In this document: in pieces, positions 24,846 through 60,543 of the stretch
Layout of the letters: every line of letters begins with the position of its first letter
Position numbering within the stretch: the first letter of the stretch is position 1
IMG/VR virus record: IMGVR_UViG_3300049215_000407
Span: 1-64,000 of that record
Direction: 5' to 3' (one strand)
Length of the DNA stretch: 64,000 nt
Source of the DNA: a virus
The notes under the pieces: model-generated
The model's database searches: none
What the model saw: only the letters and a program-made list of their open reading frames with translations
Told to the model about the DNA's origin: nothing
Program-made: the position numbers and the translations under genes

Positions 24846-24851
24846 TACGCT
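24846..24851 (+). promoter_or_regulatory. Putative -10 box of a leaderless promoter
   Basis: TACGCT, seven bases before the GTG at 24859, no ribosome-binding site. Confidence 0.4.
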
Positions 24852-24858
24852 AAGGGTC

Positions 24859-25116
24859 GTGCCCGACGACAAGGACGATCCGGACAAGACGCCTGTTCGC
24901 TCGCCGAGTGGCCTGCGGAAGCTGGGGCACGTCCCTTGTCCGAAGTGCACGCATCCGCCGTACATCTACGAGTGCGATCTCTGCTTGAACGAGGACGGAT
25001 TTTGCACGCGCGGCGTGCCTCTCGACGTCGCCGTGCGTTGGACCAAAGAGCCGCACAAGAGCCGTTTTCAGATCGAAGCCGATCGCGACCGCGACAAGCC
25101 ACCCAAGAAAGTCTAG
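24859..25116 (+). CDS. Small zinc-ribbon protein
   Basis: 85 residues from GTG. CPKC and CDLC about 14 residues apart form a zinc ribbon; the tail is basic (RDRDKPPKKV). Behind a -10 box, so apparently transcribed by its own promoter. Function unknown. Confidence 0.5.
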   Translation: MPDDKDDPDKTPVRSPSGLRKLGHVPCPKCTHPPYIYECDLCLNEDGFCTRGVPLDVAVRWTKEPHKSRFQIEADRDRDKPPKKV

Positions 25117-25119
25117 ACT
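25114..25119 (+). promoter_or_regulatory. Putative -10 box of a leaderless promoter
   Basis: TAGACT, six bases before the GTG at 25126; it overlaps the stop of the previous gene. Confidence 0.5.
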
Positions 25120-25125
25120 TTTCCC

Positions 25126-25503
25126 GTGGCTCACCGGACTCGAAGGTACTTGTCCAACCCGGCAGCTTGGAGCGAGCTCTCCCTCAACCAAAAAATCGCG
25201 GGCGGAGTCGGTTTTGCTGCCACGCTCGTTGCAACGTACTTTTCGATCAACGATCTTTTCCCTCAAGGTCTCATCGGTTCTCCGTCACGAGCGGACTGGG
25301 CAAAGCACGAGACAAAACGAACAGCCATCCTCGTATCGAGTGGTGTCGCGGCAATCGCTGGAGCTGGTGTTGCTCTCACTTCTCAAGGAAAATTCGCTTC
25401 GCTACTGTTCGGCGGATTCATGGCGCTCCTCGGAGTGACAACATTCGCGATCGCGTGGCCGGACGAACCTCCGAAACAATTTTCCGACTCACCTTCACCG
25501 TAG
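25126..25503 (+). CDS. Membrane protein with Asn-Pro box
   Basis: 125 residues from GTG. Basic start with YLSNPAAW, then three hydrophobic segments (IAGGVGFAATLVATYF, SSGVAAIAGAGVALTS, LLFGGFMALLGVTTF). The Arg-x-x-x-Asn-Pro box before the first segment recurs at 53958, 55787, 56306 and 58891. Virion or infection membrane protein by inference. Confidence 0.55.
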   Translation: MAHRTRRYLSNPAAWSELSLNQKIAGGVGFAATLVATYFSINDLFPQGLIGSPSRADWAKHETKRTAILVSSGVAAIAGAGVALTSQGKFASLLFGGFMALLGVTTFAIAWPDEPPKQFSDSPSP

Positions 25504-25506
25504 GAT
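25501..25506 (+). promoter_or_regulatory. Putative -10 box of a leaderless promoter
   Basis: TAGGAT, six bases before the GTG at 25513, overlapping the previous stop. Confidence 0.4.
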
Positions 25507-25512
25507 TTTCAC

Positions 25513-26307
25513 GTGCTCCCTTTTGGCTGGACCTCCAAAGATCTCGATCAAGCTGCGGATCTCGCCGCGAGCTACGGCGCGCCACTCGAAGATGCGCTCG
25601 GGATTTGGTTCTCCGAGTCGGGGCTCAACTGGCGAAACTCGAACGTCGGCTATTACGGCCTCATCATGGGGCTCCCGAGCTTCGTCGATCAGACCGCGGG
25701 TATGGTGCCGGGCACTTGGCAGAGAATCGTCACGAATGATTCGCTCTCCACGCAGCTCGCCGCCATCAAGCGCTTCTGGGACGCGCAAATTCGGACGTGG
25801 CTCGGCGCGAAGGCTGGCCAAGAGGAGAGCGTACTCAAGACGAGAGCGAATGCGCTCGGCGTGACCCCCGCGGGCTTGCTCTACTCCCTCAACTTCGTTC
25901 CGGCGTGGGCGTCGCGCGCGAAAACCGCAGACGGGATGCTCGTGCGCAGCGCGGAGCTCGGCGGTGGCGATCCGAATGCACCCGACTCAGAAGCCCGCTA
26001 CTACAAAGACAACGCGCCGATTGATGTCACCAAAAAGGGCTACATCTCGCTCCGCGACATGGATCTCAGGATTTCTGCATTCAAAAACCGCGCGCGCAAT
26101 TCGACAGCCACGAGAGATCTCTTCACGGAGGGATCCGACATCATTCCGGCGAGCTACACATCGAGCTCGGACTCGGAAGCTTCTTCGTCGTCGAAGTCGT
26201 CGAAGTCGAGTTTCTCGGTGTGGCCGGTGATTTTTGCGGGCACGATCATCTTCGGTGGGCTCTTTGTTGGTCTGCACTACCTCGAAAAAGCGATCCCGAA
26301 ATCATGA
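25513..26307 (+). CDS. Membrane-anchored lysozyme-like enzyme
   Basis: 264 residues from GTG. Residues 28-55 (LGIWFSESGLNW, then YYGLIMG) match the catalytic start of soluble lytic transglycosylases, with Glu35 as the probable acid. Ser-rich linker at about 210-235, then one transmembrane helix (VWPVIFAGTIIFGGLFVGL) at the C-terminus. The enzyme would therefore be tethered by its tail. Peptidoglycan digestion during entry or exit is the likely job; in membrane-containing phages such enzymes sit in the virion. Overlaps the next ATG. Confidence 0.7.
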   Translation: MLPFGWTSKDLDQAADLAASYGAPLEDALGIWFSESGLNWRNSNVGYYGLIMGLPSFVDQTAGMVPGTWQRIVTNDSLSTQLAAIKRFWDAQIRTWLGAKAGQEESVLKTRANALGVTPAGLLYSLNFVPAWASRAKTADGMLVRSAELGGGDPNAPDSEARYYKDNAPIDVTKKGYISLRDMDLRISAFKNRARNSTATRDLFTEGSDIIPASYTSSSDSEASSSSKSSKSSFSVWPVIFAGTIIFGGLFVGLHYLEKAIPKS

Positions 26308-26723
26308 AGGAGCCCGCGAAAGCTGCGCTCATCGCGGGAGGAGGTCTTGGCCTTCTCGCGGCTCTCGTATGGGGCTTCACGCGAAACAAAAACTCGGAGA
26401 GCTCGGGCAAGCACGAGAACGCCGACGTCACGCCTCCGGATGGAGTCGCCGCGCTTCCCCAATCGACGACGATCACGCGCACGTCGTGTCTGGAGTGCGT
26501 CGAGAAGCATCTCGGCGCTGCGCTCGTGCTCTCCGCAGAAGAACGCGACGGTTACCCGTATCGCTTGCGCGTGATCGGGCACCTTCACGAAGCCGAAGAC
26601 GAAAGCCAGGCGTGGCCCGCGCTCCATACTGCAATTCGAGAGGCTCGAAAGCGCTACCAGCACACCGGGCAAGCTCCCAACTTCGATGCGCTCGCGCAGA
26701 TCGCTGATAGCATTTCGAGATGA
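26304..26723 (+). CDS. Membrane-anchored hypothetical protein
   Basis: 139 residues, ATGA overlap. N-terminal signal-anchor (ALIAGGGLGLLAALVWGF) followed by a short polar linker, TSCLECVEKH, helices and an Arg-rich end. Its anchor resembles the IGGGAAV anchors at 53-56 kb. CxxC suggests a metal or redox site. Function unknown. Confidence 0.55.
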   Translation: MKEPAKAALIAGGGLGLLAALVWGFTRNKNSESSGKHENADVTPPDGVAALPQSTTITRTSCLECVEKHLGAALVLSAEERDGYPYRLRVIGHLHEAEDESQAWPALHTAIREARKRYQHTGQAPNFDALAQIADSISR

Positions 26724-26733
26724 GGTGCCCGTC

Positions 26734-26880
26734 ATGCTCACCGTGCTCATCATTCTCGTGATCGCCGCGTTCATCGTGACCATTGCTTCGGCGGCTGCGC
26801 CCGGCAAATGTCCGGTGTGGGTTGCCGTACTTTTGCTCTGCATCGTCGAGCTACTTCGCGTACTCCCGCTCGGAAAATAA
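26734..26880 (+). CDS. 48-residue two-helix membrane peptide
   Basis: ATG 26734 with GAGGTG a few bases upstream (a GTG start at 26725 is also possible). Two transmembrane helices joined by a PGKC turn. Size and layout recall small holins and the gene lies between two lysozyme-like genes; holin function is a hypothesis only. Confidence 0.45.
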   Translation: MLTVLIILVIAAFIVTIASAAAPGKCPVWVAVLLLCIVELLRVLPLGK

Positions 26881-26932
26881 TCCGTCAGGCGAGCGCCGCT
26901 TCAGTAGTCTCTACACGCGTTTCGGTGGTCGC

Positions 26933-27067
26933 ATGCGAACGTTCACGGACAAAGAAATCCGGTGGCTCACTGAACGCGTGCGCTACTACGTGAGCCGACA
27001 AAATTACACGTCGATCCCAGCCGCGATTGAGCGTGCGATTGCCGATCTCAAAGCGCTGAATTCTTGA
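26933..27067 (+). CDS. 44-residue helical protein
   Basis: ATG 26933 preceded by TAGTCT at 26905. Product is a basic helix-turn-helix-like pair (KEIRWLTERVRYYVSRQ, PAAIERAIADLKAL). Too short to classify. Confidence 0.4.
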   Translation: MRTFTDKEIRWLTERVRYYVSRQNYTSIPAAIERAIADLKALNS

Positions 27068-27152
27068 CTGGTTGACGGGTTGGTAGCCCGCGTAACCAGG
27101 CGACACCTTGCAGGGTGAAGCGGCATGCGGGGAAAGGGGGCTGCAACCCCCC
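27068..27152 (+). ncRNA. Structured region with three hairpins
   Basis: Three consecutive stem-loops: CTGGTT/AACCAG (27068-27099, with an inner CGGG/CCCG), CACC/GGTG (27104-27117) and GGGGG/CCCCC (27136-27151). No T-run follows. Could be a terminator, a structured RNA or a protein-binding site between the genes at 26933 and 27176. Confidence 0.35.
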
Positions 27153-27163
27153 TCCTCGTGCTG

Positions 27164-27169
27164 TAACCT
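27164..27169 (+). promoter_or_regulatory. Putative -10 box of a leaderless promoter
   Basis: TAACCT, six bases before ATG 27176, no ribosome-binding site. Confidence 0.4.
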
Positions 27170-27175
27170 GCGGCC

Positions 27176-27973: not shown

Positions 27974-28140
27974 TGGATCGGCTCGATCGATACACGCTCG
28001 CGAGCGCCGAGCCGGAAGCGCTGCATCGTCTCGCGCGCTACGTAAAGATCGATCCCTCGAAGTGCACGTGCCCGACGTGCACCGCGGAGCTCGTGGAGCT
28101 CCTCGTGCGCAAGCTCGACGAGCTCGAACTGCGTAGGTAG
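27973..28140 (+). CDS. 55-residue zinc-knuckle protein
   Basis: GTG start overlapping the previous stop. Helical, with CTCPTC and a Leu/Glu-rich end. Last rightward gene before the leftward operon starting at 32033. Confidence 0.4.
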   Translation: MDRLDRYTLASAEPEALHRLARYVKIDPSKCTCPTCTAELVELLVRKLDELELRR

Positions 28141-28166
28141 AACGTCTTGTTTGCCATCAAGACATC
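28141..28166. repeat. 26-bp dyad element, copy 3
   Basis: AACGTCTTG and CAAGACATC flank TTTGCCAT. Inverted relative to the 7047 copy, which it matches at nearly every position. It lies in the short gap between two convergent genes. Confidence 0.6.
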
Positions 28167-28171
28167 CCGGC

Positions 28172-28300
28172 TCACCGACGTTCGAGCCAAGGTCTCGTGC
28201 TCTTGGTTCGCGGCGGGTGAGGTGAGGAAAACTCGACCGCGACGACGAGGATCCCCCCGACGACGCTCAGCGCAAACACGATCCACGCGAGCTTGGTCAT
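28172..28300 (-). CDS. 42-residue single-pass membrane peptide
   Basis: Leftward ATG 28300, five bases after the previous stop (TGAGATG). One helix (LAWIVFALSVVGGILVVAV) and a basic Pro/Ser/Arg tail. Last gene of the leftward operon. Confidence 0.45.
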   Translation of the reverse strand: MTKLAWIVFALSVVGGILVVAVEFSSPHPPRTKSTRPWLERR

Positions 28301-28301
28301 C

Positions 28302-32041: not shown

Positions 32042-32047
32042 ACTATA
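32042..32047 (-). promoter_or_regulatory. Putative -10 box of the leftward operon
   Basis: TATAGT on the reverse strand, eight bases before ATG 32033. Good sigma70-type match; the transcript would be nearly leaderless. Confidence 0.5.
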
Positions 32048-32109: not shown

Positions 32110-32627
32110 GATTTACAGGTGTTGTTTCAAGTACATCCGCCACTTCGAGGGCTCGATCCGCCAGATCGATCACGAGGCACAAGTATTTGTGTTTGGTTTC
32201 AACGACATCCGCCACTTCTAGCTGACGAAAGTCAAAAAAACCGATCTGGCGGAAGAATTTCTTTTGCGTTTCCGCCACTTCCGCCACTCCGCCAGATAAA
32301 CCCCCTTTTACAAAAGAGGAACAAAGAAAAGGTGGCGGAGTGGCGGAAGGGGGAGTGAACGAGGGTTCACACAATGGGGCTCGGGAGAGAAAATAAAAAA
32401 CGCGACCGCGCCGGGGACTTTCACGAAACAAGTGGCGGAAGTGGCGGAGTGGCGGCGATGGTTGATATCGCTAGCGAATTCTTCCGCCACTTCGATCCGC
32501 CACTTGGGCTCCAGCTCGAAGTGGCGGAAGCTCGGGCAGAAATCAGCATCGCCCGTGCGGGAAAATTCCAGTTCCGCCACATAGGAGCAGAAAGCGCTCG
32601 CTACGACCCCGAGCTCTACGCTCGCGC

Positions 32628-47150: not shown

Positions 47151-47320
47151 GCAAGCTGATCGCGAAGTTCCCGAACGAAGTTCCCGGTCGAGGCCAAGCG
47201 CACATTTCGATTTCGATGGGCGGCGTGGAGATCGATTGGTCGCTGTCCGAACGGTGGGAGTGGAGCTTCTCGGGCAGGCTGTCTCGTGAGGTAGTTCTCG
47301 GGGGGTTGAGCTTCGACTAG
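47147..47320 (+). CDS. 57-residue beta-rich protein
   Basis: Found by reading. ATG overlaps the previous stop. Short strands (HISISMGGVEIDW, WEWSFSG). Its stop codon TAG is the first half of the -10 box of the next gene. Confidence 0.45.
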   Translation: MSKLIAKFPNEVPGRGQAHISISMGGVEIDWSLSERWEWSFSGRLSREVVLGGLSFD

Positions 47321-47323
47321 ACT
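47318..47323 (+). promoter_or_regulatory. Putative -10 box of a leaderless promoter
   Basis: TAGACT, eight bases before ATG 47332, and no ribosome-binding site. Confidence 0.5.
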
Positions 47324-47331: not shown

Positions 47332-50300
47332 ATGCACGAATGGTGGCATGGCACGCCGACAGGTGATCTCGGCCCGAGTACGCCGCATGCGATTCATGTC
47401 GGCACTCTCGCCGCCGCCACACAAGCGCTCAATGCACGCATCGGGATTCCGGTCACCGGCAAATGGGATGGATCGCGGACGTACGGCGAAACAAAGCTCG
47501 CCGGGCAGCGGACACTGCGCGGTCGCGACGAATTTCTTTTGACCGGCCACAACTGTTGCGACGCGCCCGAAGAGGACTACTACCCACGTGAACGCGCGGA
47601 TCGTCCGATCTACGCAGGAAATCAGCACGTACGCGACGAGTTTCGTCCCAACATCTTTCCCGTCCAGATCGTTGGTAGGATGTCGAATACACCGTCCACG
47701 CCGATGAGCGACACGAGAGCCAACGCGACCATGGCCGGTCAACTAAAACGCGGGACAGCAAAGCGTGGGTACTACTACATCAATGAAGGTGAAGATGCTG
47801 GCTCGGTCTCGGCTGTTGTCCCTGGGCTTTCGCATTTGGTCCGAGAGAATCCCGTGAGCTCTGCGGCCGACTACCCCGATTTCGAGGCAGCGCTTCAAGC
47901 TGCGTCGTCGCGGTTCGGTGCTACGCACGTCGTCAGGCAGGGAAACCGGAGCGCGGTCATCTACTCGCCCACCTCGAAAGGGTACGAGAGAAGGAGTCTC
48001 TCGTGTGACCGCGGCTTCTTCCATTGGCCGAAGCAGGCTGATCTCGTCGACGAGGTTCCCGAGAACGCCGAGCGCGTGGTGGACGTGCTCGATCTCGGCT
48101 TCGATCCCGACGCGCCCCCGCGAAGAGAAGCTGCGCCCCAGCGTCGCGCGGCGGAAGAAGCGCGCGGCTCCGATCGCGAACGGTGGGACAAGCTCCAAAG
48201 TGAATTCCGTCGTCTCACCGACGAGATGACCAAGGTCGAGAGCGAAGCACACGTGAAGTGGGGTCCCCACGGACTTCGCTATGCGTCACGCACCCTGCAA
48301 ACGAAGCACGGGAAGCTCGTGGCTTCACGGAACCGCGTCTACGAAAAAATCTTCGCGATGACGCAAAAGCTCTCGCCTCGCGATTGGGGTACGGGAGTGC
48401 CTACGCACTGGATCGCAGGGAAGCTGACTTTCGACGACATGGTTCGTCCCCAGAGCGAGCCGCTCAGCGTGACGCCTCCCCTGGCGTACGGCGCAACGAC
48501 ACCGATGCAAGAAGGAGCACGAGAAATGGGAGCCGTACGTGAAGTGATGGAAGGCCGGGGACGTGAGGGTCGTCGCTACGAATCTGCGCAGTGGCTCGAA
48601 TTCGAGTGCGAGCCCGCGACGCCGACGCCCGAGCTCGAAGATATGGCGCGCGAGTTCAACCACCTCGTGCTCGAATTCTTGGAGAGCTACGCGCGCACCT
48701 GGAGCATCGATACCTCTAGTCTCGATGCGGACTCATTCACGTGGAATGCGTACGCGTCGCTCGTCGGTCACGGCGTGGGTTTGTGGGAAGGCGATGGCGA
48801 CACGGGTCTCCGAGGCGAAGACGAAAAGAAGATCGACAAGGCGTTGCGGACGGGTTGGTACGCACCGGGAAGTGCGCGAGGCAAGCTTCACAATCTCGCG
48901 CATCGGATCAGCGACGAATGCGCGATGCTCCAAGGGCCGGAAGGTCGAGAGGCACGCGAAGAAGCTTCGATCCCGACGAAGGCGCAGCTCAAGATCATCA
49001 ACGCGTTTCGCGATCGCAGGTTGATGGGCAACCCGATGCGCGACTCGATCTCGACGGACGGCGACACGATCTACTCGTACCGCATGCCGATCGCGAGGCG
49101 AACGAGCAACGGTGGAGTCTCGATCGTCGATCCGGCCGGCGCTCCGAGTGCCACGACGCGCAATCACATCTACGGGCTGCAGCGAACGTTCACGCCCGCG
49201 GAGATCGCGGGAACACAGCGAGCGGCCGAGCACGACGATGACAGGGGACCGGAGACGGAGCGTATGCCAGCTCCCGCATCCCCACCAAGGCTCCAGCCGG
49301 GCTACGCGTTCTACACGCCGTCGCGCCGGAAGGGCGACTGGAAGAAAATCCCGAACGACGATTGGGAGCACGTCGTCATCGGCGAAGACGAAATCGAGAA
49401 GTCCAATTTCGTGGGGTATCGCCTCATCGATGGGTCGATGCACGACATCTTCGAGGTCTACTTCTCTGCATACCCGCGCGAGGGTCGCGGCTACTACGCG
49501 CAGCTCCAAACGCACACGCAGGGTCGCGGCTCTGCGCACGAGGGTGCGGTGCTCCTCGATCACATGGCGAACGATTTCTCGTCGCCGAAGGAAGCGATCG
49601 AGCACGCGCAGCGCGCGTGGGGTGCAACGCACGTGGACTTTCACGGCACGCGCATCCATCCCACGGTGTACGGCACCAAAGACGGCGCGCGTTGGAAGAA
49701 GACTTTGTTCAAGCAGAAGGGCAAGCTCCACTGGCCCGACAAATTCTCGAAGGGACCGAAGAGACTCTCGGGCGCGATCGAGCTCACGCCGGTTGCTGCA
49801 CCCACGCACACGCCGCCGATGCGCACGCCGCCAATGTCGCCGTCGATTCCTCCCGACGACTACGAGCGACACCTGCCGAGTTACTCGGACGAAGCCCGGG
49901 AAGGCTCAATCGATCGCCGAGTGCCATCGGCAGACACTCGCTACACATCAAGACAGTCTTCGCAGGATGCGCTTCGCGACGACGTGTCATTCGAGGGGCG
50001 ATGGATCGGCTCCGTGAGAGGACCGTTTCGATCGCGACAGGGAGACTTCTACGAATGGTCGACGTCAGGGCACTCGGGGAGGAATGGGACGCGACGTCAT
50101 GCGTTGAACGCTCTCGTTCACGCTCACAAGATGCGTACGGGTGCTCGTGAAGTTCGCGAAAACCCCGCGACTGATCTCCAAGACGCGATCCCGTGGGTGC
50201 GCGTCACGCGCGATCCCGAGCGGTACAAAGAAGCGCTCGCGCGTGCTCAGAAGATCGGCCCCGTCGACGACGCGCGCAAGGTCTACGAGCTCGTGGGTCC

Positions 50301-50649
50301 CGCGCTCATGAAGGAAGATCAGGAAACCTTCATCGTGGTGCTCATCGACGTCCGCCAGAACTGCAGGGGCGTCGCTGAGATTCACCGCGGCGCAAGGTCC
50401 AGAGTGGCAACGAGCGTTCTCGACGTGATGCGCGTCGTGGTCGCGTCGGGGGCCGAAGGCTTCATCGTGTGCCACAACCACCCGAGCGGAAAGGCGATGC
50501 CCTCGGACGCAGATCGCGATCTTACGAAGGCCATCGAGCGGGCCGCGAAGCCCTTCAAGGGTGAGACGGCGTTTCTCGATCACGTCGTCATCGGCGCGGG
50601 CGAATACTACAGCTTCGCGGACAGCAAGCTCCATAAGGCGAAGAACTGA
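47332..50649 (+). CDS. Polyvalent protein with ADP-ribosyltransferase-like and RadC/JAB parts
   Basis: 1105 residues. N-terminus (HEWWHGTP, then AIHVGTLAAATQAL) is reminiscent of ADP-ribosyltransferase-like domains of phage polyvalent proteins. Two similar repeats (about 175-230 and 720-810) share FGATHV/WGATHV and end in a HWP motif. Coiled coil and Arg/Glu-rich parts lie between. The C-terminus (about 960-1105) is a RadC-type JAB domain with CHNHPSGKAMPSDAD and zinc ligands. Asn-Pro boxes occur at VRENPVSS and VRENPATD. Polyvalent proteins are often packaged and injected; here too that is inferred. It starts from its own leaderless promoter. Confidence 0.7.
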   Translation: MHEWWHGTPTGDLGPSTPHAIHVGTLAAATQALNARIGIPVTGKWDGSRTYGETKLAGQRTLRGRDEFLLTGHNCCDAPEEDYYPRERADRPIYAGNQHVRDEFRPNIFPVQIVGRMSNTPSTPMSDTRANATMAGQLKRGTAKRGYYYINEGEDAGSVSAVVPGLSHLVRENPVSSAADYPDFEAALQAASSRFGATHVVRQGNRSAVIYSPTSKGYERRSLSCDRGFFHWPKQADLVDEVPENAERVVDVLDLGFDPDAPPRREAAPQRRAAEEARGSDRERWDKLQSEFRRLTDEMTKVESEAHVKWGPHGLRYASRTLQTKHGKLVASRNRVYEKIFAMTQKLSPRDWGTGVPTHWIAGKLTFDDMVRPQSEPLSVTPPLAYGATTPMQEGAREMGAVREVMEGRGREGRRYESAQWLEFECEPATPTPELEDMAREFNHLVLEFLESYARTWSIDTSSLDADSFTWNAYASLVGHGVGLWEGDGDTGLRGEDEKKIDKALRTGWYAPGSARGKLHNLAHRISDECAMLQGPEGREAREEASIPTKAQLKIINAFRDRRLMGNPMRDSISTDGDTIYSYRMPIARRTSNGGVSIVDPAGAPSATTRNHIYGLQRTFTPAEIAGTQRAAEHDDDRGPETERMPAPASPPRLQPGYAFYTPSRRKGDWKKIPNDDWEHVVIGEDEIEKSNFVGYRLIDGSMHDIFEVYFSAYPREGRGYYAQLQTHTQGRGSAHEGAVLLDHMANDFSSPKEAIEHAQRAWGATHVDFHGTRIHPTVYGTKDGARWKKTLFKQKGKLHWPDKFSKGPKRLSGAIELTPVAAPTHTPPMRTPPMSPSIPPDDYERHLPSYSDEAREGSIDRRVPSADTRYTSRQSSQDALRDDVSFEGRWIGSVRGPFRSRQGDFYEWSTSGHSGRNGTRRHALNALVHAHKMRTGAREVRENPATDLQDAIPWVRVTRDPERYKEALARAQKIGPVDDARKVYELVGPALMKEDQETFIVVLIDVRQNCRGVAEIHRGARSRVATSVLDVMRVVVASGAEGFIVCHNHPSGKAMPSDADRDLTKAIERAAKPFKGETAFLDHVVIGAGEYYSFADSKLHKAKN

Positions 50650-50666
50650 CGTTGACCTAAACGCTC

Positions 50667-50689
50667 CGCTTGAGTAGCTTACTCAAGCG
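50667..50689. repeat. 23-bp inverted repeat of the ACTCAAGCG motif
   Basis: CGCTTGAGTA and TACTCAAGCG flank GCT; perfect 10-bp arms. It lies 21 bases before the ATG at 50710, so it could act as operator. Confidence 0.75.
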
Positions 50690-50709
50690 CAACAAGAACG
50701 GAGCGAACC

Positions 50710-51234
50710 ATGGCGAACGAAAACGTTGGCATCGAAGTGCTGGAAAAAGACATCCTCGAACGCGCGGGGATCGAACAGCGAGATGATCTTCCGATCACGA
50801 TCGACTGCACGTGGGGTACAAATCCAGACGGCAGTCCGCGAGTGTTCACGACCGGCGAGCCTCATCCGCTTCTTCCCGGACACCTCGTCTTCGCGATTTT
50901 CCAGAATCCTTCGGAGATCAAGGTCTACTCCCTCGCTCCGCAGACGAACGGATCGCAATCGCCTCCCAAAAGTCCCGCGGAAGCCAAGGCGCGAGCTCTC
51001 GAAGAGATGCGATCGAATCCGACGCGGACGACGCTCGTGAAAACGTCGCGCTGTTCAGTGACGGAGATCATGATCCTCGACGTCTTCGTGGCATCGATCG
51101 TCCAGGATTTGATCATGCTGGAGATCGAGACGTACGGCGAAACGCCGCCCGAAGAGCCGGGAAAAGACGCGCCGAAAGAACCCAGCCCCACGGGAACAAA
51201 GCCGCAACTGGTCCCTTCACCAGCGGGGTCGTGA
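50710..51234 (+). CDS. Hypothetical structural-region protein
   Basis: 174 residues; GGAGCG site. Beta-rich first half (PITIDCTWGTNPDG, HLVFAIFQN), a helix with MRSNPTRTTLVKTSRCSVTEIM (Asn-Pro again), and a Pro/Glu tail. No family recognised. Confidence 0.5.
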   Translation: MANENVGIEVLEKDILERAGIEQRDDLPITIDCTWGTNPDGSPRVFTTGEPHPLLPGHLVFAIFQNPSEIKVYSLAPQTNGSQSPPKSPAEAKARALEEMRSNPTRTTLVKTSRCSVTEIMILDVFVASIVQDLIMLEIETYGETPPEEPGKDAPKEPSPTGTKPQLVPSPAGS

Positions 51235-51240
51235 TAGACT
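51235..51240 (+). promoter_or_regulatory. Putative -10 box of a leaderless promoter
   Basis: TAGACT, seven bases before ATG 51248, partly overlapping the previous stop. Confidence 0.5.
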
Positions 51241-51247
51241 TCGGACC

Positions 51248-52321
51248 ATGAATTTCGTTGACATCGCGAACGAGAGCGTGGCGGTTGGAATCGATCCCGC
51301 GACGCTCTCGGCTGCCATGAAAGCTGTTCCGGTTCCTCTCGACATTGCTGATCTCGGCCTTCGAGTGACGGCCGACAACAACGCGATCGTCGTCAACAAC
51401 GTGACGCGCACCGTGCAGCTCGGGTTCAGTCCTTCGATCCCCGCGGCGATCGCGGCAAACCTTCGTAACGCGGATGGAGGATTCGAGCTCATCACGCTCG
51501 GCGCGCGTGGCCTCGATTGGATTCGTCCTCCCATCGTGACGGCACTTCCGGGCTCGACTGCACTCGCGCCTCTTCGCACGGCGCAATTCCAAGCGTTTCT
51601 TCGCGTACACCAGATCGATGTGCCGGTGGGCGGTGGCGGCGTCGGCTACAGCGCGACGCCGAGAGTGCGTCTCATCGGTGGGCTGCCTCCCGCGGGTCGA
51701 GTGATCACGTCGGCATGCGTGCGTCGCATTGCGATTACGGATCCGGGTCTCGGCTACGTGCCGGGAACGGTCGCTGTGATCGAGGGCGGCGGAAACGGAG
51801 GTGCGTCGCCGCTCACGCAAGCGAAAGCGACAATCACGCAAGATGCGTTCGGCCGCATCACCAGCATCACCCTCACGGACATGGGTGCGGGCTACATCCA
51901 AGAACCGGTCGTGAACTTCGTTCCTCCGGGCGGCATTGGACCGAACCGACGCGCGAAGGCGAGCGTCGCGCTTGCCGAAGGCACGCCGGCAACAGCGCAT
52001 GCGACGGTGGCTCTTGGTATCGTCACCGGGATCGTGCTCGACACCACGGGAAGCGGCTACGTCGGAGTTCCGGATGTTGTCATCATCGATCCGACCGGAA
52101 CGGGCGCGCGCGCGATTGCACGCATGGAGCTCGAACGTATTGATGTCCGGAGCCCTGGTTTGGGCTACACCGCTGCGTCGTCGATCGTCCTCACGCCTTT
52201 TTTCAAAGCTGCGTTCCCCGACGCGAGCGATCAGTCGCGGCCCTTCTTCGGGTTCATGAACGGGCTCTTGCGAGACCGTGTGATCACGCCGATTCTCACG
52301 CACACACCCGTTCTGAGCTAA
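51248..52321 (+). CDS. Virion-like protein with GxGY repeat domain
   Basis: 357 residues. N-terminal 120 residues are mixed; then four or five repeats of a motif with GxGY, P and Gly/Ala-rich strands (PGLGYVPGTVAVIEGGG, MGAGYIQEPVVNFVPPGG, GSGYVGVPDVVIIDPTG, PGLGYTAASSIVL), seen widely in phage fibre and baseplate proteins. Probably a surface or spike component. Ends with a helix. Confidence 0.6.
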   Translation: MNFVDIANESVAVGIDPATLSAAMKAVPVPLDIADLGLRVTADNNAIVVNNVTRTVQLGFSPSIPAAIAANLRNADGGFELITLGARGLDWIRPPIVTALPGSTALAPLRTAQFQAFLRVHQIDVPVGGGGVGYSATPRVRLIGGLPPAGRVITSACVRRIAITDPGLGYVPGTVAVIEGGGNGGASPLTQAKATITQDAFGRITSITLTDMGAGYIQEPVVNFVPPGGIGPNRRAKASVALAEGTPATAHATVALGIVTGIVLDTTGSGYVGVPDVVIIDPTGTGARAIARMELERIDVRSPGLGYTAASSIVLTPFFKAAFPDASDQSRPFFGFMNGLLRDRVITPILTHTPVLS

Positions 52322-52340
52322 CCAGAGGGCTGAGGGAACG

Positions 52341-53909
52341 ATGGAAAAATTCGAGAGGCTCGATCCCGGCGACGAAGAGCGCGACGAGGACGAGGAAGAA
52401 GAAGAGGAAGAGGAAGAAGACGGCGATCCACGCGACGCTCGTTCGCAGGGCGTTGGTGCGATTCCCGCGGTCTCGGCTCCCGCCGTCGTCCAAGCGACCG
52501 CGAGTCGCAAGAAGGGAACGGGCAGCTCACACCGAGGCCAAGAGATCAGGAAGCGCGGGCGCGTTCCAAACAACGCGACGACGCCCACGCAGGCCGATCT
52601 TTTGTGGCTCGACGTCTTGCAGCGCAAAGAGATCGTCTCGAACGGGATCGAGGCCGAGCATTTTTCGATCAAGGTCTACAGACTCGACGGCTCGCAAGCG
52701 ATCTATCTTACAGCGATCGACGGCATGCGCTGCGCGGGAGATGGACGAGACGGAAGCGCGGGCGACGCGCTCTTGCGCATTCTGACCGACGAAATTCACT
52801 GGCACTCGTCGAAGGGGCTCGCCGCGACGTACCAGCTCGAATTTTCGTTCAAGCGCGGCGGCACGATCTACGACAAAGGGAAGATCCGGCTCCCGAGCAC
52901 GCAAGAGATCGGGCAAATGCGAGCGGCAGAAATGGGTCTTGGAAAGCCGCCGAATCAGTACCCGCAGCAACAGGGCTATCCGCAGCAACCTCCTCCATAC
53001 GGGCCGCAGGGCTACGCGCCCCAAGGGTTTGGTGCGCCGCCGCCGCAGTACGGACCGGGCATGGGCAACGGCTATCCGCCGCCGTACGGCTATCCGCCCT
53101 ACGGATATCCGCCGCCGCCGCATCCGGGTTACCCCGGTTTAGGCGCTCCTCCCGCGCCGAGTACGGGAGATGAAGTCACCGATCTCAAAGAGCAAGTGCG
53201 CTCGCTGAGCGAAATGGTGCGCGACATGTGGCGCTTCGGCCCTGGAGGAATGCCTCAAGGAATGGGTGGATTTCCACCGGGATACGGACAGCCGCCGCCG
53301 CCGCAAGGACTTCCGATGAGCGCGCTCAGTGAGATGCAGCGGCACCTCGCGGGTTTCGGTCTCACGATCGCTCCAGCGCATCAACCGGGAACGGCGATGG
53401 TTCCCGCGGCATCAGGATTTCAAACGGGCCTCGGTCAGCTCAAAGAGCTCGCCGTGGGCGTCTCCGCACTCAAGGAAGTTGCCGACGCGCTCAACGGCGT
53501 CTTCAACATGAACGCGCAGCAAGTCGTCGAAGAACCGAAGCCCGAGCCGGACTTCGAGATGGTCGAAGTCCCCGGATCGAAGTGGCCGAACGGCGAGCCC
53601 ATTCGCTATGCGCGCGACGACAAGGGCATCAACTGGTTCGGGACTGCGATGGGCAACGGCTACGCGATGGACAGGTTCGGGACCACGATGGCTGGTCTCG
53701 GAAGGCGCATCGTCTCGCAGATCAACAAAGAGCAAGGTGTCGGCGCGCTCGCGGATGAAGAGGAAGAGGAAGAGGAAGAGGAAGAGCAGCCGCAACAACA
53801 GCAACAGCCACAACAATCTGTTGTGACTCCTCCCCCTCAGAATCCGCCGCCGCCACGCATGAATGGCGCGCAAAATTACCCGCCTAGGGACGACGGCTTT
53901 TCGCTGTAA
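52341..53909 (+). CDS. Low-complexity scaffold-like protein
   Basis: 522 residues. Poly-Glu/Asp N-terminus (about 9-30), a folded central part (about 85-195, LLWLDVLQRKEIV to FKRGGTIYDKGKIRLP), then a Pro/Gln/Gly/Tyr-rich stretch (about 195-275) of repeated YPPP/YGPQ-like units, a helical part and again a long Glu run plus Gln repeats. Oppositely ordered acidic and Pro/Gln segments are typical of assembly scaffolds or condensate-forming proteins. Function unknown. Confidence 0.5.
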   Translation: MEKFERLDPGDEERDEDEEEEEEEEEDGDPRDARSQGVGAIPAVSAPAVVQATASRKKGTGSSHRGQEIRKRGRVPNNATTPTQADLLWLDVLQRKEIVSNGIEAEHFSIKVYRLDGSQAIYLTAIDGMRCAGDGRDGSAGDALLRILTDEIHWHSSKGLAATYQLEFSFKRGGTIYDKGKIRLPSTQEIGQMRAAEMGLGKPPNQYPQQQGYPQQPPPYGPQGYAPQGFGAPPPQYGPGMGNGYPPPYGYPPYGYPPPPHPGYPGLGAPPAPSTGDEVTDLKEQVRSLSEMVRDMWRFGPGGMPQGMGGFPPGYGQPPPPQGLPMSALSEMQRHLAGFGLTIAPAHQPGTAMVPAASGFQTGLGQLKELAVGVSALKEVADALNGVFNMNAQQVVEEPKPEPDFEMVEVPGSKWPNGEPIRYARDDKGINWFGTAMGNGYAMDRFGTTMAGLGRRIVSQINKEQGVGALADEEEEEEEEEEQPQQQQQPQQSVVTPPPQNPPPPRMNGAQNYPPRDDGFSL

Positions 53910-53945
53910 CTTGAACGTCGACTTTTCCCCAGGGCAGAGCGCGTG

Positions 53946-53951
53946 TAGGCT
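53946..53951 (+). promoter_or_regulatory. Putative -10 box of a leaderless promoter
   Basis: TAGGCT, six bases before ATG 53958. Confidence 0.45.
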
Positions 53952-53957
53952 AAGCGC

Positions 53958-54293
53958 ATGGCCAAGCGTCGGCGCGAAAATCCGATCAAGACGCGCGACA
54001 AGATCCTCATCGGTGGAGGCGCTGCAGTGCTTCTCGGTTTCGGTATTTTCTTGCTCACGCGCTCGAAGGCTGACACGGGAACCGGATCGACGGCAAACAA
54101 AGGTGGGGGCACGCAAAACGGTGGAGGCGGCGGTGGCGGCAGTGGGGGCGGGACCAACGGTGGAGGCGGCGGCGGCACCAACGGCGGTGGTGGTGGCGGC
54201 ACCGTGTCGACGGTGAAAGATTCGATGGCCTACGCTCCGCCGCAGCAAATCAACAAGCCTCCCGCACACCTAAAGGGCGGCATCAAGGCGTGA
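53958..54293 (+). CDS. Anchored Asn-Pro-box protein (family member 1)
   Basis: 111 residues. RRRENPIKTRDK, then the anchor ILIGGGAAVLLGFGIFLL, then Gly/Asn repeats and a short end (AYAPPQQINKPP). The N-terminal 30 residues are nearly identical in plan to those of the gene at 55787. A single-pass membrane protein with a floppy arm, likely part of the virion membrane. Confidence 0.6.
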   Translation: MAKRRRENPIKTRDKILIGGGAAVLLGFGIFLLTRSKADTGTGSTANKGGGTQNGGGGGGGSGGGTNGGGGGGTNGGGGGGTVSTVKDSMAYAPPQQINKPPAHLKGGIKA

Positions 54294-54294
54294 C

Positions 54295-55761
54295 ATGCGT
54301 CTTCCGCACCTCTCGAAGACGCAGAAGAAGGTCGCCATCGGCGGTGGTGCGGCTGTCGGGGTTCTCGCGCTGACGTGGCTTGCGCTTCGCGGATCGAAGT
54401 CGAGCGCATCGGACACACCGAATACCGGAAGCGTCACGCTCACTGCGACGAAGACGATGGCGGTGCGTGCGTCGCCACCTCCGGCTGATCCCACCGATCG
54501 CATTGTGAAAAGGAACACGCGCGTGCTCGCGTGGCCGTCGAGCTCGAACAAGAACGGGATGGCGTACATCAAGTTCACGGACGGTGCGCACGTTCGCGGC
54601 GGGTGGGTGAGCGACAACGCCGTCTTGCGTGACTCCGAGCAGACGCCTTGGAGTATGCCCGCGCCCATACAAAAGGGATTCTCCGGAGTCGGCGCGCTTC
54701 AAGTGCAGGTCCCCTCGACGCAGCAGCAAGAAGTCAACGCGCAGGGATCGTCGGTGAACGCCACCGTCATCAGTGATTCGTTGATGTTTGTGCATCCCGA
54801 GGACAAGGCGAAGCTCGAAACGCTGCAGAAGGAATACTTCGCGCTCATCGGTCTCATGGGATCAGGAAAAGGTCTCGTCATCCCCAACGAAGACACGTTC
54901 CGAAAGGTCTACACGCACGGTACTGGGCGAGTGCTCGGATTGATTCCGGGCATCTTCTTCAAGGACGGAAAATTTACGAAGGACAACCTCACGAATCACT
55001 CGTGGTGTCAGACGTGGGCGGCGCAAGTTGTGGGCTTCGGAAGCGATTACCTTTGGCCGTTCTACAACCAGAGCGTCTACCGCTACGGGCCGAACGTGAC
55101 GCCCGACCCGAATCTCGATCGCTACCCGAACAGTCCGATCGATCCGGTCAAAGACAATGCCGCGTACGAGGCAGCTCTCAGCGCGGCGGTCGAAGCCGAC
55201 ATCCAAGCCGCTCTGCAACGTTCGAGCTTCGGAATCATTCTCGACCAGATCGAGCAAATCATGGGGACCCCGGCATTCGGGATCATCTTCGGCAAGGATG
55301 CTCCGCGTGATGTCTTCATTCTCGAAGTGGCTCCCGACGTCCTCGATGGGCTCGCTCGTTTTGGTCACGACTTCGCGAGCGACAACGACACGACCAAAAA
55401 CCTCGACAGCAAGAGCAAGCAAGCGATCCTCGACACCGTGAACGGGAACATCAACGGAAAGCAGATCTCCGGCAACCAGCTCAAGTCGATTCAAGCATCG
55501 GTTGGCACGTACATGGTCGGCGGCGTGATCGACATGTTCGAGTCGCACAACACGGACAAGGACAAAGGCGTCGTGAACCCATGCATCCGGGAGCTCGATG
55601 CGGGGCTTGTGATCAGCATGCTCATTGCGGTGGTGAGCGCGTTCTTGGCGGTCGTTTCTCTTGGCAGCGCAGGGCTTTTGGGTCCTGTATTTCAAGCTGT
55701 CTATTGGTCTCTCTATACAGCGCCGAGCGCGATCAAGGGTCTGGCCGATTTGTCGAAGTGA
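54295..55761 (+). CDS. Anchored virion-like protein (family member 2)
   Basis: 488 residues, one base after the previous stop. Anchor with the same KT..K..IGGGAAV plan (SKTQKKVAIGGGAAVGVLAL) but no Asn-Pro box. Then an SH3-like segment (RIVKRNTRVLAWP, VRGGWVSDNAVL), a helical body with DNDTTKNL and a final hydrophobic region (LDAGLVISMLIAVVSAFLAVV and another). Probably spans or bridges the membrane; function unknown. Confidence 0.55.
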   Translation: MRLPHLSKTQKKVAIGGGAAVGVLALTWLALRGSKSSASDTPNTGSVTLTATKTMAVRASPPPADPTDRIVKRNTRVLAWPSSSNKNGMAYIKFTDGAHVRGGWVSDNAVLRDSEQTPWSMPAPIQKGFSGVGALQVQVPSTQQQEVNAQGSSVNATVISDSLMFVHPEDKAKLETLQKEYFALIGLMGSGKGLVIPNEDTFRKVYTHGTGRVLGLIPGIFFKDGKFTKDNLTNHSWCQTWAAQVVGFGSDYLWPFYNQSVYRYGPNVTPDPNLDRYPNSPIDPVKDNAAYEAALSAAVEADIQAALQRSSFGIILDQIEQIMGTPAFGIIFGKDAPRDVFILEVAPDVLDGLARFGHDFASDNDTTKNLDSKSKQAILDTVNGNINGKQISGNQLKSIQASVGTYMVGGVIDMFESHNTDKDKGVVNPCIRELDAGLVISMLIAVVSAFLAVVSLGSAGLLGPVFQAVYWSLYTAPSAIKGLADLSK

Positions 55762-55773
55762 CCGAGCTCGGCG

Positions 55774-55779
55774 TATGCT
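55774..55779 (+). promoter_or_regulatory. Putative -10 box of a leaderless promoter
   Basis: TATGCT, seven bases before ATG 55787; TTGTCG lies 18 bases upstream and could be a -35. Confidence 0.5.
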
Positions 55780-55786
55780 GAGCCGC

Positions 55787-56302
55787 ATGGCACGACGGCG
55801 CGAGAATCCGCTCAAGACGCGAGACAAGGTTCTCATCGGCGGTGGCGCTGCGGTCGCTCTGATCGGGATCACGTGGGCCTTGACGCGATCGTCGAAGAGC
55901 TCGACGTCGGGCGGTGGCGGTGGCGGTGGCGGTGATGGGCAACAGCAAGGCCCCCCTCCTCCGAATCAGCCGCCGCCGAAACAAGGCAGTCCTCCCGCTC
56001 CGCCAGGCAACGGTTTCAACGGATCGAACCCGGCGAACTTCTTCGGGAGCGTGGGCGACTACGCGAACCAGCTCGCGAAGCTCGGGTACAACTACCAACA
56101 GATTTACAACTACCTCGACTACTTCGGCGGCGTGAAGATGCTCAAGAACTTCGGCATCGATCTGCCGACGATCCAACAGATCTTCAGCGGCATCGATCTG
56201 AAGTCGCTCCAAGGTGCTCTTCAGGGCATCGACTGGGGTTCACTCGCGGGCGCTCTCAAGGGGATCGATCTCAGCGCGTTCCAAAATATCCGGATCGGGT
56301 GA
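55787..56302 (+). CDS. Anchored Asn-Pro-box protein (family member 3)
   Basis: 171 residues. RRRENPLKTRDK and the anchor VLIGGGAAVALIGITWAL match family member 1; then Gly/Pro-rich linker and a helical domain with repeated IDLKSLQGALQGIDWGSLAGALKGIDLSAF units. The helical repeat suggests a lipid-binding or oligomer-forming piece. Virion membrane protein by inference. Confidence 0.6.
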   Translation: MARRRENPLKTRDKVLIGGGAAVALIGITWALTRSSKSSTSGGGGGGGGDGQQQGPPPPNQPPPKQGSPPAPPGNGFNGSNPANFFGSVGDYANQLAKLGYNYQQIYNYLDYFGGVKMLKNFGIDLPTIQQIFSGIDLKSLQGALQGIDWGSLAGALKGIDLSAFQNIRIG

Positions 56303-56305
56303 CGC

Positions 56306-56536
56306 ATGGTTCGTCATCGTCCAAGGCGGTATCGCTCGAACCCGACCGCGCGTGAGATCGGTGCGCTCATCATAACGACCGCGATCACGGCGGGCGTGGC
56401 GACCATCATCACGTGGTGGGTGACGAAAGAGCTCGAATCGAAAAAGCAGACGCAGCAACAGCAACCGCCGCAACTTCCTCCGGCTCCAGCTCCGAACTAC
56501 GGCGGCAACAATCCGGGAGAAGGGTACTGGGCCTGA
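56306..56536 (+). CDS. Small anchored Asn-Pro-box protein
   Basis: 76 residues, three bases after the previous stop. RYRSNPTAREIG, then a transmembrane segment (LIITTAITAGVATIITWWV) and a Gln/Pro-rich tail. Same plan as the neighbours; overlaps the next start. Confidence 0.55.
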   Translation: MVRHRPRRYRSNPTAREIGALIITTAITAGVATIITWWVTKELESKKQTQQQQPPQLPPAPAPNYGGNNPGEGYWA

Positions 56537-58041
56537 TGTTCACCGCAGAAACCGATCGCAGCTTGGGCTTGCCCGTCGTGCACGAGCGCTACCCGGATGG
56601 CGAAGAAGGAATCCAGAAGTCGATCAAGACGATCTGCACGAAGGTCCGCGAGGGCATGGTCACCGCGGTGATGAAAGAATTCGCGGGCAACGTGCTCAAG
56701 CAAACGCCGGGTGCTCTGCACGGTGGGACGCGAGAACGCGCGGACGCGCTCTGTAATTTCGTTGCGACTACAACCGGCTATGCACCAGACGCGCTCGGCT
56801 CAGAGCAGATCCAGAGTGCTCAGATCACGCTTTGTGTGCCAGGCGCGCAGCTCTGCATCCCGATTCGCGATTGCGACGATGGCGTGGTGGCGGTCGGTAC
56901 GCTCATCGGCGCTGCAGGAATGGATGTCGAGGTGGTGCGCCAGATCTTCGGTGGCGGTCATCAACAGCACGTGCTTCTCGAAGTGAAGCTCGAAGACGGT
57001 TCATGGTACCCGCTCGATCCGTCGAACAAAACGCACCCTTGCGGCGTGAAAGCGCCGGCACAACGCGAGACGAGGCACTCGCCCTTCGACTCGAAGTTGA
57101 CGGGACTCTCGGATCAGGCTCAATTTGTCGGCATGGGCGCACTTCCTGTTTTGGTGTGGCAAGAACCTCATTCTGGTTTTCCTGGGAGATGGGCTCGACT
57201 TCCGAGCGATGCGAAGCTCGAAGGTCTCGGCGGGATCCTCCCGAGCATTTCGGATCTTCAACCGCAGCTCAAATGGCTCGGAACGATCTGGAGCACGATC
57301 GATCCGAAGGGGCGCTCGTGGGACACGGCGCTCGCCGACGCGTACAACCGAGCGGAGCAAAAGAATTGGGTCGCGGGCGATTCGACGTCGTACTTCGATC
57401 TCACCGCGATCATCGTGCGCTCGGCGATTCTCTCGCGCGTGGCGGGTGGGATGCCGTCTCCCGGACCCGACGCGGCAGCCGCGCTCGACAACTCGTGGAA
57501 GCTCATCGCCACGAAGCTCGGCTACACGTCGCAGACTTCGATGGACGATCTCAAGACCGCAGCGAAGCGAAACAATCAGGTCGCAGCGCTCGCGCTCTTC
57601 GAGCTCATCGCCGTCATCATCGCGATCGCTGCGCTCGCGGTCGTCTACTGCTTCGCGATCTACTACGCAGCGAAGATCGTCGATTCGCTCCTCACGCGTC
57701 TCGTCGCGTTCGCCGAAGAGGTTTGGCGCAACGTCCAGATCCAAAAGATGATCGACCGGCACGTCAACAACCCGGATCTTCCGTGGGATCCCGAAGAGAA
57801 AAAGCTCCTCGACCAGCTCGAAAAACAGCAAGACGAGACGCACAAAGCTGTCATCAAGCCTCCGGATCTTTCTCCTCCGGGTGCGCCGCCGTCGTTCTGG
57901 GATTCACCCTGGGCGATTTTCGGGATCGTAACGGTCGTCGCTGGAACCGCAGCCGCAGTCGTGTACCGGAAAGAGATCAAGGGCGCGCTCGACCGACACG
58001 GCAGCCGATCAGGCAGGTCGACTGCCATCGTCGCAACGTGA
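56536..58041 (+). CDS. Transglutaminase-like membrane protein
   Basis: 501 residues, TGATG overlap. Residues about 100-170 match the transglutaminase-like core: RDCDDGVVAVGTLIGAAG with Cys113, HVLLEV with His145, WYPLDPS with Asp161. That fold usually cleaves peptides or cross-links proteins. Later come a hydrophobic helix (LALFELIAVIIAIAALAVVYCFAIYY), charged helices and another hydrophobic helix (WAIFGIVTVVAGTAAAVVY). A membrane-bound processing or cross-linking enzyme is likely; substrate unknown. Confidence 0.65.
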   Translation: MFTAETDRSLGLPVVHERYPDGEEGIQKSIKTICTKVREGMVTAVMKEFAGNVLKQTPGALHGGTRERADALCNFVATTTGYAPDALGSEQIQSAQITLCVPGAQLCIPIRDCDDGVVAVGTLIGAAGMDVEVVRQIFGGGHQQHVLLEVKLEDGSWYPLDPSNKTHPCGVKAPAQRETRHSPFDSKLTGLSDQAQFVGMGALPVLVWQEPHSGFPGRWARLPSDAKLEGLGGILPSISDLQPQLKWLGTIWSTIDPKGRSWDTALADAYNRAEQKNWVAGDSTSYFDLTAIIVRSAILSRVAGGMPSPGPDAAAALDNSWKLIATKLGYTSQTSMDDLKTAAKRNNQVAALALFELIAVIIAIAALAVVYCFAIYYAAKIVDSLLTRLVAFAEEVWRNVQIQKMIDRHVNNPDLPWDPEEKKLLDQLEKQQDETHKAVIKPPDLSPPGAPPSFWDSPWAIFGIVTVVAGTAAAVVYRKEIKGALDRHGSRSGRSTAIVAT

Positions 58042-58047
58042 AACGAA

Positions 58048-58293
58048 ATGAGCACGGACGTTGAGCTTGAACCGGCCCCGCCCGTCGCCGATGACGATGG
58101 GCGAGATCACATTCTCGATCAGGAAGCGAACCCCCCCGAAGCTATAATTTGGACGTTCCTTTGTGGAGAATCCGTAGTTGTTGGCGACGACGGCATGATG
58201 TTTCCTCCTGAAGACGATTGTTATTTGCTCGGGTCGCCCGGTTACAAAAAAGCGACGTGCAAACGGTGTCGCAAAGCAGCCGGCCTACCGTGA
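58048..58293 (+). CDS. Small zinc-knuckle protein
   Basis: 81 residues. Acidic start, then FLCGE, an aromatic strand and CKRC at the end. Function unknown; overlaps the next GTG. Confidence 0.45.
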   Translation: MSTDVELEPAPPVADDDGRDHILDQEANPPEAIIWTFLCGESVVVGDDGMMFPPEDDCYLLGSPGYKKATCKRCRKAAGLP

Positions 58294-58781
58294 GCGAGCG
58301 TGGCCTGATCTGCATGGGGCGCGACGTGTTCTTCGTGCTTCGCGGAGGTCGCGAGGTGTCTGCGCGGCGAAGGCGCGATGGAATGCTCTACGACTCGTCG
58401 GGCTACTACTGGCCGAAGTGCAGTTTGCTCGTCGCTCCATTCGAGCAAGGGCGTGACACCTGCGACGTGAGCAAGGCGCGTGATTTTTTTGGTCGCAGAG
58501 TCGATGTGCTCGAAGGACGAGTGCCGCAACTTCCGCCGAAAGACATGCACGCGTGGCGTGCAGTCGGCGAAGTGGATCAAGTTTTCTACGATCGCGCCGG
58601 CAAACACGACGGACCGTTCCGGCACAAATTCAATTCGCCGCACGGAATGTTCAAACTCGTTGCGCTCTTCAAGAAGCGTGTTGCCGAGTCGAAGGTGATT
58701 CTCTACAGCTTGAACGGCTGTTATCGGCTGGAGCTCCCGCGGGGTTGCATTGTCGATGATCGCGGCTTCGTCTTGCCCTGA
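58290..58781 (+). CDS. Hypothetical protein
   Basis: 163 residues from GTG. Aromatic and basic, with strands (DVFFVLRGGREVSARRRR, KVILYSLNGCYRLELP). Last gene before a 109-base control region with four tandem 12-bp repeats. Confidence 0.5.
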   Translation: MSERGLICMGRDVFFVLRGGREVSARRRRDGMLYDSSGYYWPKCSLLVAPFEQGRDTCDVSKARDFFGRRVDVLEGRVPQLPPKDMHAWRAVGEVDQVFYDRAGKHDGPFRHKFNSPHGMFKLVALFKKRVAESKVILYSLNGCYRLELPRGCIVDDRGFVLP

Positions 58782-58801
58782 TCCGAAAAATAGTTTTACG
58801 C

Positions 58802-58849
58802 ACTCAAGCGGTTACACAAGCGGTTAGTGAAGCGGCTACTCAAGCGCGT
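58802..58849. repeat. Four tandem 12-bp repeats (ACTCAAGCGGTT)
   Basis: Units ACTCAAGCGGTT, ACACAAGCGGTT, AGTGAAGCGGCT and ACTCAAGCGCGT, head to tail, upstream of the promoter of the gene at 58891. Confidence 0.85.
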
Positions 58850-58877
58850 AGTCATCACGTGCGCATCCGCGGTGATG

Positions 58878-58883
58878 TAGACT
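58878..58883 (+). promoter_or_regulatory. Putative -10 box of a leaderless promoter
   Basis: TAGACT, seven bases before ATG 58891; the 12-bp repeats end 28 bases upstream. Confidence 0.5.
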
Positions 58884-58890
58884 TCCGCGC

Positions 58891-60543
58891 ATGACCATCC
58901 GCTACAGCGATCTCATGGCAAAGATGCGGGATCAAGCGCCTGATCTCGCAGCAACGCGATCGCGCAGAGCGTCTGCGCCAGTGTCTGCGGCAGTGTCTGC
59001 GCCAGTGTTCCATGCGGACGACAAGACGAAGCGCAGACGCAAGAGCGCGCGCACGAGCGCGCGTGCGCGCTTGACGAAAGGAAGCAAGCGGGGTTCTCTA
59101 AAGAAAATGCGTGCTCGAACCGCACCGCGGAGAGCACGTGAATCCACCCGGAGAACAACCGTGGCCAAAGCATCCCCCGCACAACGTCGCGCCCTCAAGA
59201 AAGCCCGTGCTGCAAAACGTCGGTACGCGCGAGCTCCGCGTCGCGGCGCACGCGAGATGAAGGGACAAGTTCGGCGCAACAGGGCCGGCAAATTCAGTGC
59301 GACCGGAAGCAAGATCGCTGGTCGGTTCACTGGTGAAGCACGGAGGCGTCGTCGACGGACTCGTCGCGCGTACGAAGCGCCGCGTCGTCGTCGACGTCAC
59401 TACGCGCGCGAGATGGCGGCTGCAGCTCCGCGTCGTCGTCGCCGCGCAGGTCGTCGCCGCCACTACGTGAAGGGGCACTACTCGCACGAAGCTCGTCGTC
59501 GTCACGGCCGTCGCCGTCACCGCTACGCGCGCGAGTTCGCCGCTCAAGCGCGTGGCCGAGGTCGTCGTCGTCATTCCCGCCGCTACCGCGGCGCGCTGGA
59601 GAATCCGCTCTCCGGCATGGAGCTCGCGATCACGATCTTCACCGGCTCGGTCGGCTACATGGCTGCCGAGATCGCGGATCGCATGATGGCGGTCCGCAAC
59701 GGCGCACCGCTCGTCACGCTCGCCGTCAACGGCGGCAAGGCACCGCAGCTCCCGATGTACGACGACTGGCCCCGCCTGGTCGTTGGCGCAGCCATCACGG
59801 GTGCACCGCTCGTTGCGAGCGCGTTCATCAAATCGCCCACGTGGCGATCGGCGCTGCAGACGATGGGCATCGGCGCGGGTCTCCGCACCGTGGGCCACAT
59901 CCTCGTCAGCGTTGCAGCCAAGCTCACCGCGCCCGCGGCGGATGCGAAGCAAACCACTGCACAAGTCCAGAAGAACATCTTCGCGTTCGAGCAGTCGCTC
60001 GCGTCCGCGTACGACACGTGGAACAAGCAGACGGATCAACAGAAGACGGACGCCGAGAAGGCGTACGAAACAGCGCAAGGCACTGCGGGTCTTCCGCAGG
60101 GAACCGGTGCATGTCCGACGTGCAAGCGCACCGATGGTCTCGGCGCATGCTGCGGGCGCATGTCGCAACAGCCGCCGCAAGCGCAACCGCCCCTTCCTCC
60201 TCCTCCTCCGATCACGGCCACGCCTCCGGCTTCACCTCCGCCTGTTTCCATGCAGCCGCCGATGGTGCCGCAAGCGCCGCCTCCTCCGTACAATCCGCCC
60301 GCGGTCACGCCGCCTCCGGTGGTTTCACGTCCTCCGGGTGACGTCTCGCGTCCTCCGGGATCGATGCTTCCGGGAAGCCCGCCCGCGATCGCAATCCCTG
60401 CGACGCCAGCATTCGTTCCTTCGCCGGCTTCGCCTCTCGTGGGCGCGGGTCGAGGCATGGGCATGCCCCAGCGCTTCATGGCGGGAACGGGTTCGGTCGC
60501 GCCCCGACCGAATTTCAACTGGGGCGAGGACGCCGCGGAGTAA
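58891..60543 (+). CDS. Arg-rich membrane-anchored DNA-binding candidate
   Basis: 550 residues. Residues about 45-225 are dominated by Arg, Lys and Ala, with repeated HYAREMA/HRYAREFA units, like a protamine or histone tail. Then YRGALENPLSG (Asn-Pro box), hydrophobic segments (MELAITIFTGSVGYMAAEIA; LVVGAAITGAPLVASAFI), a helical part, CPTCKRTDG...CC, and a Pro-rich end. It could tie the genome to a membrane inside the virion, an inference from charge plus anchoring. Starts from its own leaderless promoter. Confidence 0.55.
   Translation: MTIRYSDLMAKMRDQAPDLAATRSRRASAPVSAAVSAPVFHADDKTKRRRKSARTSARARLTKGSKRGSLKKMRARTAPRRARESTRRTTVAKASPAQRRALKKARAAKRRYARAPRRGAREMKGQVRRNRAGKFSATGSKIAGRFTGEARRRRRRTRRAYEAPRRRRRHYAREMAAAAPRRRRRAGRRRHYVKGHYSHEARRRHGRRRHRYAREFAAQARGRGRRRHSRRYRGALENPLSGMELAITIFTGSVGYMAAEIADRMMAVRNGAPLVTLAVNGGKAPQLPMYDDWPRLVVGAAITGAPLVASAFIKSPTWRSALQTMGIGAGLRTVGHILVSVAAKLTAPAADAKQTTAQVQKNIFAFEQSLASAYDTWNKQTDQQKTDAEKAYETAQGTAGLPQGTGACPTCKRTDGLGACCGRMSQQPPQAQPPLPPPPPITATPPASPPPVSMQPPMVPQAPPPPYNPPAVTPPPVVSRPPGDVSRPPGSMLPGSPPAIAIPATPAFVPSPASPLVGAGRGMGMPQRFMAGTGSVAPRPNFNWGEDAAE

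Follow-up and report, generated by a model that had tools for sequence, protein, structure and literature searches.

The question raised by this locus is whether the TANNNT hexamers that stand a few bases upstream of several of its start codons are promoters of leaderless mRNAs, and whether they are of the kind used by the host or form a late class of the virus's own. The window analysed comprises 64,000 of the 64,447 bases of the IMG/VR virus record IMGVR_UViG_3300049215_000407, has a G+C content of 61% and is coding over 83% of its length. No tRNA genes were found in these 64,000 nucleotides, and an Rfam search of the window returned zero matches. Genes were called using a codon-usage model, which is blind to upstream motifs, and the resulting start set contained 86 starts.

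The first-pass annotation had listed twelve genes preceded by such a box. Ten of these sites hold, nine rightward and one leftward (Table 1), the latter exactly as claimed, whereas those of genes 2615 and 6877 fail. The hexamer at 2615 is TAAAGC, which has no T at position 6, and the coding score of this gene is near zero; at 6877, TAGATT lies just 4 nt from the GTG, and the ORF scores -0.15 per codon. The earlier counts of eight TAnnCT boxes, four of them exactly TAGACT, are right. The TAG of the box at 25114 also terminates the 24859 ORF, the TAG of the box at 25501 terminates the 25126 ORF, and 53958 and 55787 are paralogs in their N-terminal parts.

Table 1. Candidate -10 boxes and intergenic repeats in the window
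Feature	Coordinates	Strand	Gap to start (nt)	Start codon and context
TACGCT	24846..24851	+	7	GTG 24859 (85 aa ORF); weak case
TAGACT	25114..25119	+	6	GTG 25126 (125 aa, two hydrophobic segments)
TAGGAT	25501..25506	+	6	GTG 25513 (264 aa, C-terminal hydrophobic segment)
TAACCT	27164..27169	+	6	ATG 27176 (265 aa)
TATAGT	32042..32047	-	8	ATG 32033 (56 aa, leftward)
TAGACT	47318..47323	+	8	ATG 47332 (1105 aa, C-terminal RadC-like JAB domain)
TAGACT	51235..51240	+	7	ATG 51248 (357 aa, weak similarity to virion structural proteins)
TAGGCT	53946..53951	+	6	ATG 53958 (111 aa, one hydrophobic segment)
TATGCT	55774..55779	+	7	ATG 55787 (171 aa, one hydrophobic segment)
TAGACT	58878..58883	+	7	ATG 58891 (550 aa, Arg-rich N-terminal part)
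Tandem row of four imperfect 12-bp units (ACTCAAGCGGTT)	58802..58849	+		upstream of the 58891 promoter
ACTCAAGCG copies	2565-2577(-), 20975, 38351, 50667(-)/50681, 58802, 58838
AGTGGCGGA tandem rows	32270-32294, 32430-32455			adjoining primase/helicase genes

Eight of the 86 called starts carry TANNNT 4-8 nt upstream, all of them at 6-8 nt, compared to 30 of 3,754 control ATG/GTG codons (0.8%; P ~5e-7), a comparison that is conservative, since some of the control codons may be real starts. The P value is 6e-6 when one of the paralogous pair 53958/55787 is removed. The other spacings between 0 and 73 nt showed no enrichment, with 0-2 starts each. The box pattern before gene starts is real, and the concern that the box might be equally common before unrelated codons is settled by the same comparison. 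As a word, TAGRCT occurs in the window at chance frequency (11 copies vs 11.4 in shuffled sequence), and five of its seven plus-strand copies lie 6-8 nt upstream of a long ORF or gene start.

In the established promoter geometry the -10 hexamer spans positions -12 to -7. A gap of 6-8 nt from box to start codon would therefore place the 5' end of the transcript on or within two bases of that codon, and the boxes are thus best read as leaderless promoters of the host main sigma factor. Shine-Dalgarno sites are absent at most box-bearing genes and present at most others. The earlier statement that the box-bearing genes have no ribosome-binding site stands for most of them, but 25513 and 24859 are ambiguous, because an AGGA inside the box of the former could serve as one and an AAGGG directly precedes the GTG of the latter. 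No common -35 was found, in agreement with the first-pass annotation: the best TTGACA matches reach 32 matched letters vs 26.6 at random (P=0.02), only a slight excess. Neither a hexamer common to the -35 zones of the box-bearing genes above chance nor an activator site common to these promoters was found.

From this arrangement we infer that each box would act as the -10 element for the host main (sigma-70 type) RNA polymerase, with a weak or absent -35, and that transcription would begin at the start codon or no more than about two bases from it. Such an mRNA would have no leader or Shine-Dalgarno site, and the ribosome would start at its 5'-terminal AUG or GUG. This host-style start would mainly open short units in the zones of virion and membrane-protein genes. 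Box-bearing genes often head two-gene units, e.g. 47332+50710, 51248+52341, 53958+54295 and 55787+56536, and in most of them the second gene has a Shine-Dalgarno-like site. We consider it likely that the boxes are host-sigma -10 elements that give leaderless mRNAs and mainly open such units. The prediction of leaderless promoters, already made in the first-pass annotation, is well supported by the position statistics and by a matching arrangement in Myxococcota genomes.

The middle and late transcripts of the Thermus phage P23-45 are leaderless. In this phage gp39 blocks -10/-35 promoters, and the middle and late promoters, which have no -35, are less affected (PMC7403470). The promoters described here would likewise be independent of a -35, a property that gives P23-45 a means of controlling the host polymerase in time; however, the P23-45 promoters have an extended -10 and are linked to gp39, whereas TGn just upstream of the box, a possible extended -10, was found among our box-bearing genes at 51248 only. 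A TANNNT hexamer ~12 bp upstream is the signature of leaderless genes in high-GC bacteria, and this signal was reported in 8 of 33 delta-proteobacteria, in a mean of 15.8% of the genes (PMC3160421). In Deinococcus, a -10 motif alone adjoining the ORF was shown experimentally to be an active and sufficient promoter (PMC12340547). The boxes of the virus resemble the TANNNT-led genes of Actinobacteria, Deinococcus-Thermus and some delta-proteobacteria (PMC3160421, PMC12340547) in their TANNNT core, in the weak or missing -35, in the position of the first T (12-14 nt upstream of the start, vs ~12 bp in the bacteria) and in the absence of a ribosome-binding site at most of the genes, the two ambiguous ones aside. 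They differ in that they lie on a virus contig, are concentrated in virion-type zones and, as far as so few sites can show, lean to TAGRCT in their inner bases. A leaderless transcript of phage lambda is mentioned in the same survey (PMC3160421); as there, phage genes are predicted here to be expressed from leaderless mRNA, but as a set of about ten instead of a single transcript. That the set of the virus is a further case of the already known TANNNT-led leaderless promoters is well supported.

The same box and spacing are over-represented in Myxococcota. TAGACT-N6-8-ATG was counted 407 times and TAGACT-N16-18-ATG 148 times in 20 Myxococcota genomes (2.8-fold), and the N6-8 count was above the N16-18 count in 17 of the 20, three genomes (G005-G007) being without enrichment. 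The excess was absent in an off-phylum control, a genome of the FCB group (26 vs 31), and in G178, a genome from the same Myxococcota phylum search (16 vs 15). In sampled Myxococcota genes TANNNT peaked at a spacer of 7 (11 vs a background of 2.5). Because of this over-representation the box appears to be host-style, not phage-specific, and the idea that TAGRCT is peculiar to the virus is not supported, the word being no more frequent in the window than expected by chance and used likewise across Myxococcota. The boxes thereby suggest the likely host group. Two predicted lipoproteins, 15077 and 18947, are presumably of myxobacterial type, and of 10 Myxococcota-type genomes searched, 5 contained a match to 15077, the best with an E of 2e-22. 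A cysteine-rich consensus bait peptide of our own design had been used to reach these genomes; the peptide is itself no host evidence, and the matches therefore indicate similarity to Myxococcota with other phyla not excluded. Judged from these sequence similarities, the host is probably a member of the Myxococcota (myxobacterial).

A different reading, in which the boxes form a phage-specific late class, with a modified host polymerase or a phage activator using -35-independent leaderless promoters late in infection, is less likely, although it accounts for several observations. Leaderless starts were found at 8 of 21 genes in the virion and membrane-protein zones (24.8-28.2 kb, from 47.3 kb onwards and up to 2.3 kb) vs 1 of 65 elsewhere, with a P value of 3e-5 that is optimistic, since the zones were drawn after the data had been seen. 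This clustering is compatible with a late class, as suggested in the first-pass annotation; the fourfold recurrence of exact TAGACT and the absence of a common -35 also speak for it, and P23-45 gp39 provides a precedent (PMC7403470). Against it, uninfected Myxococcota genomes commonly carry this box at this spacing, the scanned proteins of the window include no recognisable sigma factor, no upstream hexamer shared above chance was found, and 32033, which adjoins replication genes, is boxed too. The box-bearing genes 25513, 27176 and 32033 (minus strand) lie outside the main structural block. Many box-bearing genes encode hydrophobic segments, but most genes have no family match, and the term virion therefore rests on neighbourhood and weak similarity. 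That an uncultured Myxococcota virus runs its virion genes through late, -35-independent leaderless promoters, with both transcription and translation differing from those of Shine-Dalgarno-led early genes, is a tentative and rather doubtful proposal.

It is improbable that the boxes are ordinary -10 elements with a short leader kept, or that the genes rely on read-through from upstream operons for their translation. Some of the upstream gaps are short (13-48 nt), so read-through transcripts likely exist as well, but if the -10 is used the gap of 6-8 nt is too small for a ribosome-binding site, and most of the genes have none. An origin by chance, or from stop codons of upstream genes adjoining start codons, is very improbable: it would fit the two TAGs shared with upstream stops (25114 and 25501) and the chance frequency of the TAGRCT word, but none of the remaining boxes overlaps the stop codon of an upstream gene, and the spacing peak is far above the control codons and missing at other distances.

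Read as host-style leaderless promoters, the boxes correct gene starts, those of 25126 and 58891 being absent from the codon-based calls. They also make the virus a testable case in which Shine-Dalgarno-led and leaderless starts are split by gene function.

Relatives of the virus were searched with several proteins. Scans of IMG/VR with proteins 60610, 32628, 51248 and 15077, of genome contigs with 60610, and of 195 Myxococcota-type phylum genomes with 60610 and 56536 yielded zero relatives. A primase search gave distant matches only, and a plasmid search with the lipoprotein was empty. The RRENP..KTR peptide, searched as a DNA pattern, matched short contigs without relation to the window and was discarded.

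Terminase, portal and tail genes were not recognised among the scanned proteins, and several small proteins have a single hydrophobic segment; the virus is possibly of a tailless, membrane-containing type. Gene 60610 (459 aa) encodes a putative capsid protein, and its true start is probably ATG 60631, upstream of which lies AAAGGAAAG. In the protein of 58891, the first 240 residues (58891-59616) are very Arg-rich and protamine-like and are followed by ENP; this part was missed by codon-based calling. In the proteins of the putative structural block (47332-63726 and 98-2253), G[LVMFI]G[small] is enriched (20 vs 7.6 by within-protein shuffling), and RENP occurs 4 times vs 0.05; RENP is also present in 27176 and in the GroES-like 2922. 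These motifs are perhaps maturation-protease or sorting signals.

Two families of short repeats are confined to intergenic DNA. ACTCAAGCG has 7 intergenic copies and none in the coding 83% of the window; it occurs in 12-bp tandem units at 58802-58849 and 2564-2599 and as an inverted pair at 50667/50681. These repeats are possible operators or iterons, and the row upstream of 58891 is a possible operator. AGTGGCGGA has 10 intergenic copies in the window and none in coding DNA, and the region of its tandem rows, ~32270-32455, is a possible replication origin.
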